Source: Rhodospirillaceae bacterium (GTDB lineage Bacteria > Pseudomonadota > Alphaproteobacteria > Dongiales > Dongiaceae). From it: DNA of 45,872 nucleotides. The first letter of the stretch is position 1. Every line of letters begins with the position of its first letter. Shown here one piece after another: positions 39,255 to 45,872 of the stretch. Under the pieces are notes generated by a model. That model was given only the letters and a program-made list of their open reading frames with translations. It was not told the origin of the DNA and did not search any database. The stretch lies in contig JAEUKV010000026.1 of assembly GCA_016794165.1 (NCBI GenBank), forward strand, positions 1 to 45,872. The letters run 5' to 3'. The position numbers and the translations under genes are program-made.

Positions 39255-40435
39255 CCGACCTCGGCAACACATCCGGCAATCCGGGCGGCCTGCCGCATTA
39301 CGTCAACCCGGCACCCTTCGATCCCTATGCCATCGACCGGCCCAATCCGGCGCTGGAGAAGATCTACATGGCGTCGCAATGGCGCATGATGTGGCTCCGC
39401 TTCCGGCGCCACCGGGTCGCCATCGCCTCGGGCATCGTGCTGCTCGCCATGTACGCCGCGATCCTGTGTGTCGAGATCCTGGCGCCCTATGGCCAGCACA
39501 GCCGCGACGTCGATCACATCTACGCACCGCCACAGGAGGTGCACTGGTTCCACGACGGCGCGTTCGTCGGACCCTTCGTCTATTCCCTCGACTACCAGCT
39601 CGACATGGAGGATTTGCAACGGATCTATACCGAGGACACCAGCGATCCGCGGCCGCTGCGGTTCCTCTGCCAGGGCGACAGCTATCGCTTCTGGGGCCTG
39701 ATCGAGGGGAACTTCCATCTGGTCTGCCCGCCCGATGCCGAGACGCCGCTCTATCTGCTGGGGTCGGACCGGCTGGGGCGCGACATGCTCTCCCGCATCC
39801 TTTATGGCATGCGCATCTCGCTCACCATTGGCCTGTTCGGCGTCACGGTCAGCTTTGCGCTCGGGATCATTTTCGGCGGGCTCGCCGGCTATTACGGGGG
39901 ATGGGTCGACGATCTGCTGCAACGCACGATCGAGGTGCTGCGCTCGATCCCGCATTTACCCCTGTGGCTGGCGCTGGCGGCGATCCTGCCGGTGCACTGG
40001 TCGCCAATGCTGGTGTTCTTCGGCATCACCATCATCCTCGGCCTCATCGACTGGACCGGTCTCGCGCGCGCCGTGCGCTCGCGCCTGCTGTCGCTGCGCG
40101 AGGAGGATTTCTGCGTGGCGGCGCAGCTGATGGGTGCCAAGCCCTCGCGCATCATCTTCCGCCACCTGATGCCGAGCTTCATGAGTCATCTCATCGCCTC
40201 GGCGACGCTGGCGATCCCGGGCATGATCCTGGGCGAGACCGCGCTCTCCTTCCTCGGTCTCGGCATCCGCCCGCCGATCACGTCGTGGGGCGTGCTCCTC
40301 AACGAGGCGCAGGACATCAATGTGGTGGCGCTCTATCCCTGGCTGATGCTGCCCATCGTGCCGGTGATCGTGGTGGTGCTGGCCTTCAACTTCCTCGGTG
40401 ACGGGTTGCGCGACGCGGCGGATCCCTATCGCTGA
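39251..40435 (+). CDS. Peptide-type ABC transporter permease (DppC-like)
   Basis: 394 residues, longer than the usual 290-300. The extra length lies mainly in the first periplasmic loop, about residues 75-165 (HIYAPPQEVHWFHDGAFVGP through FHLVCPPDAETPLYLLGSDR). The core has LGRDMLSRILYGMRISLTIG, the EAA loop CVAAQLMGAKPSRIIFRHLM, and the conserved ETALSFLGLGIRPP and GDGLRDAADPYR ending. It is the final gene of the nine-gene operon that starts at 30137. Confidence 0.93.
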   Translation: MTDLGNTSGNPGGLPHYVNPAPFDPYAIDRPNPALEKIYMASQWRMMWLRFRRHRVAIASGIVLLAMYAAILCVEILAPYGQHSRDVDHIYAPPQEVHWFHDGAFVGPFVYSLDYQLDMEDLQRIYTEDTSDPRPLRFLCQGDSYRFWGLIEGNFHLVCPPDAETPLYLLGSDRLGRDMLSRILYGMRISLTIGLFGVTVSFALGIIFGGLAGYYGGWVDDLLQRTIEVLRSIPHLPLWLALAAILPVHWSPMLVFFGITIILGLIDWTGLARAVRSRLLSLREEDFCVAAQLMGAKPSRIIFRHLMPSFMSHLIASATLAIPGMILGETALSFLGLGIRPPITSWGVLLNEAQDINVVALYPWLMLPIVPVIVVVLAFNFLGDGLRDAADPYR

Positions 40436-40514
40436 ACGACATCGGCCGGGGCTTGTCGACACGGTCCCGATATGCGAGTTTGTCGCCTGTTATAAAACTA
40501 ATAGGAGACGGACC

Positions 40515-40877
40515 TTGGCTATCAAACCGTTGGGGCTGGCGCTGTCGCTGCCACTGATCCTGCCGCTGCTGGCCGCGTGCCAGCCGCAAGCCGGCCGGGT
40601 CGATCTGCAGTCGGACGAAAAACTGGTTCTCTCGCAAGGTACCTGGGACTACTTCCAGGAATATCTGCAGACCATCGGTGGCGGCAAGCGCGGCGCCTTC
40701 GTGGTGTCCGACGACGGGTACTTTGCAACCTATTTTTACTGCCCCGTCACCAGCGGCTGCTATTCGAACATCAACTACTCAGCCGACGCGCTGAAGGCCT
40801 GCACCTCCGAAGGGTACCAATGTGTCCTGTTCGCGAAGAACGACGATATTGTCGTCGAGTATGAAGTGGCCGACTGA
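40515..40877 (+). CDS. Small lipoprotein with four conserved cysteines (paralogue A)
   Basis: 120 residues from a TTG at 40515 with TAGGAGAC eight bases ahead; no ATG is available before the signal peptide. Signal sequence AIKPLGLALSLPLILPLLAAC has the lipobox LAAC with the lipid cysteine at residue 20 or so. The mature domain has LVLSQGTWDYFQEYLQTIGG, then RGAFVVSDDGYFATYFYC and YQCVLFAKNDDIVVEYEV. Its four cysteines are spaced C-x5-C-x13-C-x6-C, exactly as in the next gene. The strand-rich AFVVS...C...IVVEYE pattern resembles small extracytoplasmic domains in Alphaproteobacteria, but I cannot name the family. It lies 79 bases after the ABC operon. Confidence 0.75.
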   Translation: MAIKPLGLALSLPLILPLLAACQPQAGRVDLQSDEKLVLSQGTWDYFQEYLQTIGGGKRGAFVVSDDGYFATYFYCPVTSGCYSNINYSADALKACTSEGYQCVLFAKNDDIVVEYEVAD

Positions 40878-41353
40878 GTGCGTGCCTGTTTCATCAGCCG
40901 AAGGTTGTCCGCTGCGCTTATTGCCAGCGTCATGGCGTTCGGCTGCCAGCCGTTGCCGCAGCCGACGGGCATCGAATCGGAACCGGCCGTTTTTTTCAGC
41001 AACCGATGGGTATCGAATCGGAGCCGGATGAGACGCTGCCGCAACCGGCGAGCATCGAACTAGAGCCTGATGAGATGTTGTTGATCAGCGAGGAAGTCTG
41101 GTCGGATTATCTCGATTATGTTGATCTGTTGGAAATGGCGAAGCCGGGCGCCTATGTCGTCAGCCAGACTGGACTTGCCGGAGGATACTCTGTGTGTGCG
41201 GAGGTTCCCCATTGTGCCAACACAGAATACTACGTTCGTAACGCCTTGCGATTGTGCGAGGCGGAAGGTGAAATATGCATCGTCTTCGCCAGAGACAATG
41301 CGATCGTCGTCAGTTTCGAGATCATCCGGCACACTATCGAGGTCGTCAACTGA
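40878..41353 (+). pseudogene. Small lipoprotein paralogue B, frameshifted in a T7 run
   Basis: A GTG at 40878, immediately after the stop of paralogue A, opens a lipoprotein signal RRLSAALIASVMAFGC and QPLPQPTGIESEP, but this frame ends at 41063. The rest of the protein lies in the -1 frame, readable from an ATG at 41006 to 41353: MLLISEEVWSDYLDYVDLLE, GAYVVSQTG, and cysteines spaced C-x5-C-x13-C-x6-C as in paralogue A. With eight instead of seven T at 40990-40996 the whole gene would be one frame. The cause may be a sequencing error, a true mutation, slippage or phase variation. Read alone, the 41006 frame gives a 115-aa protein without a signal peptide. Confidence 0.7.
40953..41077 (+). repeat. 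Three tandem 14-codon repeats in the split lipoprotein gene
   Basis: Units of about 42 bases begin at 40953, 40994 and 41036 and would encode LPQPTGIESEPAVF, FQQPMGIESEPDET and LPQPASIELEPDEM. The distance between equivalent points is 41 bases from unit 1 to 2 but 42 from unit 2 to 3, which locates the missing base in the T run joining units 1 and 2. The repeats form the acidic, proline-containing spacer between the lipid anchor and the folded domain. Confidence 0.75.
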
Positions 41354-42577: not shown

Positions 42578-42606
42578 GGTTCATCAAGCTGTAACATTAG
42601 TGTCGT
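42578..42606 (+). promoter_or_regulatory. Candidate Pho box upstream of the phosphate transport genes
   Basis: Three 7-base units with 4-base spacers lie in register: GGTTCAT (42578-42584), CTGTAAC (42589-42595) and GTGTCGT (42600-42606). Compared with the PhoB half-site CTGTCAT/C, the middle one matches at six of seven positions and the others at four to five. The 11-base period is that of PhoB sites. The location, 36 bases before the likely start codon of a phosphate transporter, supports the call; the matches alone are moderate. Confidence 0.45.
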
Positions 42607-42641: not shown

Positions 42642-45029
42642 ATGGTTGGGATGCGCGCCCGGCGGGCAATGCCAGGCAGGGACCGGAAGGATCGGCGGCG
42701 AAGCCTGCTTTGGCGGGTCGGCCGTACTGCGGCGCGGGGCGTTCCGGCGCTGGGCCTGCTGCTGGCCCTGACCGTGCTTCCCCACCTTGCCGCGCCGGCC
42801 CAGGCTCGCGACCAGATCCATATCGTCGGCTCCTCCACCGTCTATCCGTTCTCGACCGCCGTTGCCGAACATTTCGGCCAGGGCCGTTTCCGCTCGCCGG
42901 TGGTGGAAGCCTCCGGGACCGGTGGCGGCTTCAAGCTGTTCTGCGCCGGGACCGGGACGGGCTACCCCGACATCGCCAATGCCTCGCGCCGGATCAAGGA
43001 GAGCGAGATCGCCACCTGCACCGCCAACGGTGTCAGCGAGATCGTCGAGATCGAGATCGGCTATGACGGCATTGTCGTGGCAAGTGCCAAGAGTGCCCCG
43101 GAGCGCCCGCTCTCGATCCGCGATCTCTATCTCGCCCTCGCCAAGGTGGTGCCGGTGAATGGCGCCCTCGTTGCCAATCCCTATCGCCTGTGGTCCGAAA
43201 TCAATCCCGCCCTGCCGGCCGACAGGATCGAGGTGCTGGGGCCGCCGCCCACTTCCGGCACCCGCGATGCCTTCCTCGAACTGGTGATGGAACCGGCCTG
43301 CCACGCCTTCCCGGAGATAGGCGCGCTCGCCGACAAGGACGCGCAGAAGGCCGCCTGCCTGACCCTGCGCGAAGACGGCGCCTATGTCGACGCCGGCGAG
43401 AACGACAACCTCATCGTGCAGAAGCTCTCCGGTAACCCGGATGCTTTCGGTATCCTCGGCTATTCCTTCCTCGCCGACAATCGCGACAAGCTGCAGGGCA
43501 GCGCCATCGACGGCGTGACGCCCAGCGAGGAGAACATCGTCGGCGGCCAGTACGCCGTCGCCCGCAGCCTCTATATCTATGTCAAGAAGCAGCATCTGAC
43601 CCTGGTGCCGGGCCTGGGCGAATTCGTGGCCGAGTTCGTCTCCGACCGTGCCTCCGGGCCGCAGGGCTATCTCACCGACAAGGGCATGATCGCGATGCCC
43701 AAGCCGGTTCACGATGCTGCCGCCGAAATGGCCCTGGCGGCCCTGCCGATCGCAAGCTCGCTCGGTGCCGGGCTGGATCTCGGCCCGGCCGGGGCGCTGC
43801 TGCCCTGGATCGCCGCGGCGCTGCTCCTGGTGTTGAGCTCGGTCGGTTTCCAGGTCGGTCGCCGCCGTGCCTTCGTCAGCGTTGGCGGCCAGACCCGGCA
43901 ACTGCATTCGCTGCCCGGCTATCACGGCCTCTTCGTGGGACTGGGTGCCTTCCTGCCGGGCGCCGTGGCGCTGCTCGCTGGCGCTGTCGCCATCAGCTTC
44001 ATGCCGAGCGAGACCAGCCGCGACGTGATCTGGGCGGCCATCGCCGCCGCCACCTTCGGCGCCGCCGCGATCGGCCTTGGCTGGGCGCAGCGCCATATCA
44101 GTGCCGAGTTCCGTGCCAGGAACGCGGTCGAACGCGCGGTGATGGTGCTGCTCATTGTCTGTTCGCTGCTCTCGATCCTCACCACCATCGGCATCGTGCT
44201 GTCGCTGGTGTTCGAAGCGGCCCGCTTTTTCGCCAGGGTCCCGATCAGCGAATTCCTGTTCGGCCTGCAATGGTCGCCCCAGATGGCGATCCGCGCCGAC
44301 CAGGTGGGTCAGTCCGGTGCCTTCGGCGCGGTGCCGGTCTTCGCCGGTACGCTGCTGATCACGATCATCGCCATGGTGGTGGCCGTTCCCATCGGGCTGA
44401 TGGCGGCGATCTATCTATCCGACTATGCCGGCAGCCGCGTGCGCAACTGGGCCAAGCCGCTGATCGAGATCCTGGCCGGAATCCCGACCGTGGTCTACGG
44501 CTTCTTCGCCGCCCTCACCGTCGCCCCCCTGGTGCGCAGCGGGGGCAGCGCGCTCGGGCTCGACGTGGCCTCGGAATCGGCCCTTGCCGCCGGCCTGGTG
44601 ATGGGCGTGATGATCATCCCGTTCATCTCCTCGCTTTCCGACGACGTCATGAACGCGGTGCCGCAGTCCCTGCGCGACGGCGCCTATGCGCTGGGGGCCA
44701 CCAAATCGGAAACCATCCGCCAGGTGGTGGTGCCGGCGGCGCTCCCCGGCATCATGGGCGGCATTCTGCTGGCCGTTTCGCGTGCCATCGGCGAAACCAT
44801 GATCGTGGTGATGGCGGCGGGTCTCACCGCGCGCCTGACCGCCAACCCGCTGGAGGCGGTGACCACGGTCACCGTGCAGATCGTCACCCTGCTGGTGGGC
44901 GACCAGGAGTTCGACAGCCCCAAGACACTCGCCGCCTTCGCCCTCGGCCTGGTCCTCTTCGTGGTAACGCTGATCCTCAACATCATCGCCCTGCGCATCG
45001 TCAAGAAGTATCGAGAGCAATATGAGTGA
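42642..45029 (+). CDS. pstSC: Fused phosphate-binding protein and permease (PstS-PstC)
   Basis: 795 residues from the ATG at 42642 (GAGG five bases ahead); a GTG at 42600 is open in frame but overlaps the candidate Pho box. An arginine-rich signal region leads to GVPALGLLLALTVL and probable cleavage after APAQA. Residues about 55-370 are PstS: IHIVGSSTVYPFSTAVAEHF, SGTGGGFKLFCAG, GYDGIVVAS, PPTSGTRDAF. At about 383-403 a membrane segment (ALLPWIAAALLLVLSSVGFQ) ends in GRRRAF. PstC follows: LHSLPGYHGLFVGLGAFLPG, VVYGFFAALTVAPLV, EAA loop DGAYALGATKSETIRQVVVP, and AIGETMIVVMAAG. No stop or start divides the two parts, and both look complete. It overlaps pstA by 8 bases. Confidence 0.9.
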   Translation: MVGMRARRAMPGRDRKDRRRSLLWRVGRTAARGVPALGLLLALTVLPHLAAPAQARDQIHIVGSSTVYPFSTAVAEHFGQGRFRSPVVEASGTGGGFKLFCAGTGTGYPDIANASRRIKESEIATCTANGVSEIVEIEIGYDGIVVASAKSAPERPLSIRDLYLALAKVVPVNGALVANPYRLWSEINPALPADRIEVLGPPPTSGTRDAFLELVMEPACHAFPEIGALADKDAQKAACLTLREDGAYVDAGENDNLIVQKLSGNPDAFGILGYSFLADNRDKLQGSAIDGVTPSEENIVGGQYAVARSLYIYVKKQHLTLVPGLGEFVAEFVSDRASGPQGYLTDKGMIAMPKPVHDAAAEMALAALPIASSLGAGLDLGPAGALLPWIAAALLLVLSSVGFQVGRRRAFVSVGGQTRQLHSLPGYHGLFVGLGAFLPGAVALLAGAVAISFMPSETSRDVIWAAIAAATFGAAAIGLGWAQRHISAEFRARNAVERAVMVLLIVCSLLSILTTIGIVLSLVFEAARFFARVPISEFLFGLQWSPQMAIRADQVGQSGAFGAVPVFAGTLLITIIAMVVAVPIGLMAAIYLSDYAGSRVRNWAKPLIEILAGIPTVVYGFFAALTVAPLVRSGGSALGLDVASESALAAGLVMGVMIIPFISSLSDDVMNAVPQSLRDGAYALGATKSETIRQVVVPAALPGIMGGILLAVSRAIGETMIVVMAAGLTARLTANPLEAVTTVTVQIVTLLVGDQEFDSPKTLAAFALGLVLFVVTLILNIIALRIVKKYREQYE

Positions 45030-45872
45030 CAGGCCCCCAGTCGCGACGCCCGCACAGCCCGTAGGCAAGCGACCCAATCTCAGCCCGGCCTGGATCCGGC
45101 GCCGCTATGCTGCCGAGCGCCGCTTCAAGCTCTATGGTCAGCTCGCCGTGATGGCCGCCATCGCCATGCTGGCGGTCCTGCTGGTCTCGATCTGCAGCCG
45201 CGGCTACAGCGCCTTTGCCCAGACCGAGATCACCCTCGATGTCTTCATCGATCCCGCGGTCGTGGCGCCGGCGGGTGCCACGGACAACGACACGCTGCTG
45301 GCGGCGGATTATCAGGGCCTGATCAAGGATACGCTGAAGGAAATGTTCCCGGCGGTGACCAGCCGCGGCGACCGGCGCAACCTCTACGGCATGATCTCCA
45401 ACGCCGCCGGCAACGAGATCCGCCAGGCGGTGCTCGCCAACCCGGCCCTGATCGGCACCACGCAACGCTTTACCGTGGCCGCCGACGACAATGTCGACAT
45501 GCTGCACAAGGGATTCATCGACCGCGCCTTGCCCGAATCCGAGCGCGTGGTGAGCGACGGCGAAATTCTCTGGTACGACCAGCTGGTGGCCGAGGGGCGC
45601 CTCGGCCTCGGCCTCAACACGACTTTCCTCAGCACCGGCGATTCGCGCGAACCGGAACAGGCCGGCGTCTTCGGCGCCCTGATGGGCACGGTCTTCACCA
45701 TGCTGGTGACCATCGCGCTCGCTTTGCCGCTCGGCGTCATGAGCGCCATCTATCTCGAGGAGTTCGCGCCCAAGAACCGGGCCACGGAGCTGATCGAGGT
45801 CAACATCAACAACCTCGCCGCGGTGCCCTCGATTGTCTTCGGCCTGCTGGGCCTTGCCGTGCTGCTGGGCGT
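45022..45872 (+). CDS. pstA: Phosphate ABC transporter permease PstA (partial, N-terminal part)
   Basis: The first 283 residues are present and the gene runs off the right edge. It begins MSDRPPVATPAQPVGKRPNL, then the first membrane segment LAVMAAIAMLAVLLVSICSR. A long periplasmic region follows (about 50-200: DVFIDPAVVAPAGATD, LYGMISNAAGNEIRQAVLAN), as in the extended alphaproteobacterial PstA. The core starts at GVFGALMGTVFTMLVTIALA, with ALPLGVMSAIYLEEFAP and NINNLAAVPSIVFGLLGLAV. The start overlaps the pstSC stop. PstB and PhoU would be expected beyond the window. Confidence 0.93.
   Translation, partial: MSDRPPVATPAQPVGKRPNLSPAWIRRRYAAERRFKLYGQLAVMAAIAMLAVLLVSICSRGYSAFAQTEITLDVFIDPAVVAPAGATDNDTLLAADYQGLIKDTLKEMFPAVTSRGDRRNLYGMISNAAGNEIRQAVLANPALIGTTQRFTVAADDNVDMLHKGFIDRALPESERVVSDGEILWYDQLVAEGRLGLGLNTTFLSTGDSREPEQAGVFGALMGTVFTMLVTIALALPLGVMSAIYLEEFAPKNRATELIEVNINNLAAVPSIVFGLLGLAVLLG

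Follow-up and report, generated by a model that had tools for sequence, protein, structure and literature searches.

Pst is a main route of high-affinity phosphate import and also serves as an input to the Pho regulon. In the stretch of DNA analyzed here (the window, 45,872 nucleotides from a Rhodospirillaceae bacterium), a first-pass annotation reported that the phosphate receptor, PstS, and the permease subunit PstC are encoded as one 795-residue polypeptide. This locus raises the questions of whether the fusion is real, how such a protein would work, and how it arose.

The frame of pstS and pstC

A single open frame on the plus strand starts at position 42642 and ends with a stop codon at 45027-45029, giving 795 amino acids. 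Its parts and immediate neighbors are as follows.

42578-42606, plus strand: Pho-box-like element of three 7-mers with 11-bp spacing (GGTTCAT-CAAG-CTGTAAC-ATTA-GTGTCGT)
42642-45029, plus strand: fused gene pstSC, 795 amino acids plus stop (open frame, domains, fusion shared by relatives)
42642-42806, plus strand: signal peptide, residues 1-55 (sequence, hydrophobic peak at 33-53, model helix at 36-49)
42807-43739, plus strand: PstS phosphate-receptor domain, residues 56-366 (PF12849, 9jwy, seven phosphate contacts)
43740-43796, plus strand: linker predicted to be flexible, residues 367-385 (pLDDT below 50 at 373-384; indel-free in six genomes)
43797-44117, plus strand: three extra transmembrane helices, DUF3708, residues 386-413, 425-452, and 460-484 (PF12501, model, loop charges)
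44118-45026, plus strand: PstC permease core, residues 493-795 (TIGR02138, PF00528, E. coli PstC structures)
45022-45872, plus strand: pstA, sharing its first 8 bases with the end of pstSC and cut by the contig end (PF11812, TIGR00974)

Pfam matches covered the protein in the order PBP_like_2 (PF12849, residues 51-336, E value of 5e-43), DUF3708 (PF12501, residues 393-450, E value of 2e-12), and BPD_transp_1 (PF00528, residues 581-791, E value of 1e-19). Among solved structures, the first half is closest to SAR11 PstS (9jwy, 48% identity) and the second half to E. coli PstC in the PstSCAB complexes. With 281 bits against the PstC model TIGR02138 (cut-off, 196.45), the protein qualifies as a PstC. 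It is identified as a PstS by the PBP_like_2 domain together with all seven phosphate-contact residues; the NCBIfam PstS model TIGR02136 gave 137.8 bits, below its cut-off of 206.6. Since this cut-off is likewise missed by the free PstS of the genome (145.6 bits), the low score marks the clade and not the fusion. The gene adjoins pstA in the window, and the remainder of pstA, followed by pstB and phoU, lies on contig C97 (3.6 kb) of the same genome; in relatives, these genes are contiguous.

The ATG at 42642 aligned in five of six genomes of the genus, and hence the start chosen in the first-pass annotation is right. We rejected a longer GTG start at 42600, which lies inside the conserved Pho-box-like element, and an internal start for a separate PstC (ATG at codon 363, position 43728), which is not kept in other genomes. 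A twin-arginine signal was likewise rejected, not being conserved in the genus. Judging from the sequence, the signal peptide is probably cleaved after AQA, ahead of RDQ.

SAR11 PstS contacts phosphate through S32, S33, T34, T61, S83, G174, and T175 (PMC12421899). The equivalent residues of the window protein are S64, S65, T66, T93, S115, G206, and T207, and all seven are kept in each of the eleven fused copies examined. Pro201 corresponds to SAR11 Pro169, which replaces the usual Arg. With these residues in place, the fused PstS domain should bind phosphate. Elsewhere in the window, at 40398-41353, there are two or three small adjacent frames for similar short secreted proteins, two of them with a lipoprotein-like signal ending in Cys (AACQPQ and FGCQPL). 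Similar small secreted proteins are found at the same place in loci L206 and L207.

A stop codon between pstS and pstC could be missing only in the data, through a sequencing or assembly error. The window genome is fragmented (332 contigs), and the fused gene of one genome of genus g4 is frameshifted (L205 of G013, near the PstS/PstC junction, which could be natural or itself a sequencing error). However, the same in-frame junction and conserved linker occur in five other genomes of the window genus (g1), some of them assembled into 10 to 50 contigs. These five copies are 79 to 86% identical in protein sequence to that of the window. Counting the window genome, the fusion is present in all six genus genomes that have a DUF3708-type Pst, and none has a stop. 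Elsewhere in the family, we found it in one genome of g7 and in two of g4 in addition to the frameshifted one; the genes are unfused in g2, g3, g5, and g6. A frameshift or missed stop near 43740-43860, the failing that the first-pass annotation had itself named, is excluded by the in-frame junction in independent genomes. The error explanation is thus refuted, and we give it next to no credence. Kept in six genomes of the genus and three more of the family, the uninterrupted frame is more than chance. We conclude that PstS and PstC are encoded as one 795-residue polypeptide, as shown by the open frame, the Pfam and TIGR domains, and their retention in relatives.

The seventh genome of the genus has no DUF3708-type Pst and carries a classical short PstC instead. 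Among the genomes, one of the genus and one of g5 (G004 and G010) have a classical short-PstC Pst in place of the DUF3708 type, which suggests replacement of the whole system.

The fusion is rare. We searched 385 sampled Alphaproteobacteria with a profile of the junction, and stop-free matches spanning it were found in six, namely, five of the genus and one genome of another family (G032); among the matches listed, every other spanning match has at least one stop. In 397 genomes of the phylum only two qualified, both of them genus members in the sample. These sets are samples, and the profile would miss fusions with a very different linker or a short PstC. At all 80 of 80 named loci pstS and pstC are separate, and annotated plasmid matches list separate genes. 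We found no report of a PstS-PstC fusion in the open-licence literature searched. Tethered receptors, as in OpuA and GlnPQ, and Pst are each known already.

Predicted topology and proposed tethering

A predicted structure of the fused protein had a mean pLDDT of 82 and a pTM of 0.58, with the relative placement of the two halves not reliable; for depth only, its alignment read through the stops between the separate pstS and pstC of relatives. In the model, the folded PstS ends in a helix at 354-366. The linker that follows is about 19 residues long, and its pLDDT is below 50 at 373-384. Helices at 386-413, 425-452, and 460-484 precede the PstC core. The loops contain 0 (373-385), 3 (408-429), 0 (453-459), and 3 (482-496) lysines and arginines. 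The predicted fold and the loop charges agree in placing PstS outside, as the first-pass annotation had supposed. The membrane helix ending in GRRRAF that was described there is also present, but it is the first of the three DUF3708 helices and not the first helix of PstC itself.

The N terminus of E. coli PstC is inside. By analogy, three added helices would bring the N terminus of the window PstC outside with the core in its usual orientation, so that a periplasmic receptor could be joined without inverting the channel. Because DUF3708 helices also occur in unfused relatives, this topology would be older than the fusion. The extracytoplasmic loop of DUF3708 (window positions 43980-44030, residues ~450 to 460) has about 50 residues in most relatives; it is absent from g1 and g7 and, as a separate case, from a few unfused relatives (e.g., L042, L017, and L018). 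We considered a link between fusion and loss of this loop and rejected it, since the loop is retained in the fusions of g4 and G032 and is absent from some unfused relatives.

We propose that pstSC encodes one membrane protein in which a Sec-exported PstS domain is followed by the ~19-residue linker, the three helices, and the PstC half of the channel. Together with PstA and PstB, this protein would make up a high-affinity phosphate importer that is ordinary except for the receptor, which would be permanently tethered next to the site where it docks. By the geometry used for OpuA, the effective receptor concentration would be roughly 1 mM (half-sphere of radius 19 × 0.35 + 2 nm). The comparison with other ABC importers with fused receptors made in the first-pass annotation holds, receptor and channel being encoded as one chain with precedents in OpuA and GlnPQ.

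Alternatively, the chain might be made whole and then cut in the linker, so that PstS becomes soluble and PstC stands alone as it does in other bacteria. The linker, predicted to be disordered, shows the lowest conservation of any part of the mature protein in the genus and could thus be accessible to proteases. Among the six genus genomes, residues 358-388 at the junction have no indel and a pN/pS of 0.42, compared with 0.31 for the PstS domain and 0.15 for the PstC core. Amino acid replacements at the junction are thus fewer than silent changes, in keeping with purifying selection there. Against cleavage, we saw no motif for it, the helix after the linker would run from outside to inside, which is not the layout of a signal peptidase I substrate, and the genome already has a dedicated free PstS. 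We regard cleavage as quite improbable.

The free receptor and the origin of the fusion

The window genome has two PBP_like_2 domains, one fused and one free, and one PstC. The free PstS and the fused domain share 65% identity; the free protein has a plain Sec-type signal and intact binding residues. Its gene follows that of a PhoR-like histidine kinase and has a Pho box (G000 contig 50, L209:4439-7142); in the window genus, the remainder of the pst operon lies elsewhere. The first-pass annotation had suggested that the tether fixes the ratio of receptor to channel. The suggestion finds no support in that form, since a free PstS with intact binding residues coexists with a single PstC, so that the tether does not hold the ratio at 1:1.

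The Pho box of the free pstS (GTGTCAC-ATAA-CGGTCAT) matches 12 of 14 consensus positions. The best 18-mer upstream of the fused gene matches 11 of 14, a score reached at 9 places in the window on both strands. Hence, the stronger argument for the Pho-box-like element is conservation: it is nearly identical in all six genus genomes amid diverged upstream DNA. PhoB may bind this element and control the fused gene. In the G032 fusion (L201:2100-2117), we observed a near-perfect upstream Pho box (CTGTCATAAAACTGTCAC) and no free pstS beside the fused gene.

With a free paralogue present, the fused domain may no longer be the main receptor; the free PstS would then deliver phosphate, the fused domain being a drifting, structural, or sensory relic. 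Between genomes, mean identity is 80% for the fused domain versus 85% for the free PstS, and the fused domain is the less conserved in 14 of 15 genus pairs. Such faster evolution may reflect relaxed or changed function. The free gene also has the more canonical Pho box and adjoins phoR. Against this reading, every fused copy keeps the seven phosphate contacts, the pN/pS of 0.31 indicates purifying selection on the fused domain, and three genera retain the fusion. Moreover, the pst operon of G032 contains no pstS besides the fused gene, which has a consensus Pho box, although a different contig carries two further PBP_like_2 genes. We consider a relic unlikely.

Instead, two receptors most likely serve the single permease: a tethered one that is constantly available and a soluble one expressed from a Pho-box promoter of its own. 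Even when soluble PstS is scarce, the permease would have the tethered PstS within reach, and the free PstS could dock on the same permease when induced. We infer an intact chain in the cell, tethered docking, and sharing of the permease between receptors.

We then considered the origin of the fusion. When loci were selected by their PstC only, 23 of 71 pstS-pstC pairs were in one frame, which is the third expected by chance; in 9, a single stop separates the two in-frame genes. Adjacent genes in frame at the chance rate mean that loss of one stop could create a fusion. Stop read-through in relatives, an idea prompted by the many loci where a lone stop separates in-frame pstS and pstC, finds no support at this rate and was rejected.

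The tree of PstS domains places the fused domains of g1 and g7 in one clade (support, 100/93). Its sister is the free PstS of g1 and g7 (98/82), and the two groups have a joint support of 100/97. The fused domains of g4 group with the free PstS of g4 (99/94), and that of G032 is placed elsewhere. A single clade of all fused domains was rejected (AU test, P = 0.0002). A single clade of the family's fused domains was rejected less firmly (P = 0.0175); the groups were preset, but long branches may have influenced the result. The PstC sequences of the family's fusions form one weakly supported group (89/45). Together, the trees and AU tests indicate at least two origins of the fusion. A third is probable, although gene conversion between the tandem copies of g4 could produce the same pattern.

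The gene order in g7 is phoR, free pstS, fused pstSC, pstA, pstB, phoU, and phoB, and g4 looks alike by position. In the window genus, phoR and the free pstS are located elsewhere, away from the fused gene. These orders fit a history in which pstS was duplicated, its second copy became fused, and the operon split later. The most likely origin is thus a tandem duplication of pstS, after which the stop ahead of an in-frame pstC was lost; the free pstS was kept and, in the window genus, is now next to phoR at another site.

Taking these lines together, we favor, with reasonable confidence, a Pst importer with a tethered receptor that arose by duplication and stop loss and whose single permease is fed by two receptors. 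A more specific version would assign the tethered receptor to constant uptake and to sensing through PhoU and PhoR and the soluble paralogue, under separate regulation, to starvation, with the three DUF3708 helices permitting a fusion that evolved at least twice in Alphaproteobacteria; we put this forward only tentatively.

Comparison with known importers

The combination of a tethered receptor, a free paralogue, and only one channel offers a natural test of whether phosphate signaling responds to receptor docking, to receptor abundance, or to flux. The case also hints at a way in which extra helices can make receptor-channel fusions possible, and it widens the range of tethered receptors to include a heterodimeric importer from a Gram-negative bacterium.

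The E. coli PstSCAB importer (cryo-electron microscopy structures 9k3s, 9k3x, and 9k3y) has PstS, PstC, and PstA domains like those of the window, whose genome also has pstB and phoU, and the expected substrate and regulatory setting are the same. In E. coli, however, PstS and PstC are separate, and PstC is without the extra N-terminal helices. SAR11 PstS (9jwy; PMC12421899) is the nearest solved relative of the receptor and shares with it the seven phosphate contacts and the Pro-for-Arg replacement, but it is a free protein, and the Pelagibacteraceae loci examined have separate pstS and pstC genes. The unfused DUF3708-type PstC proteins of Alpha- and Gammaproteobacteria share the core, the extra helices, and the operon neighbors with the window system; they differ in that pstS is a separate gene just upstream.

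The design of a channel-linked receptor is otherwise known from importers of other substrates. In the amino acid importer GlnPQ, a flexible linker of 19 residues joins the receptor domain to the channel (PMC8025302), but each of two channel subunits carries two tandem receptor domains, and the bacteria are Gram positive. The glycine betaine importer OpuA likewise has its receptor covalently joined to the channel through a short linker, here of 11 residues with an anchoring helix, for which its authors estimate an effective concentration of ~4 mM (PMC11065425). OpuA differs from the window system in substrate and family and in having two linked receptors per complex. Since PstC pairs with PstA, a window complex would have one tethered receptor, with the free receptor besides. 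Receptor and channel share one open frame that is kept in relatives, and the best family matches are Pst models. By analogy, the window protein would work like OpuA and GlnPQ as a member of the Pst family, belonging to neither of theirs.
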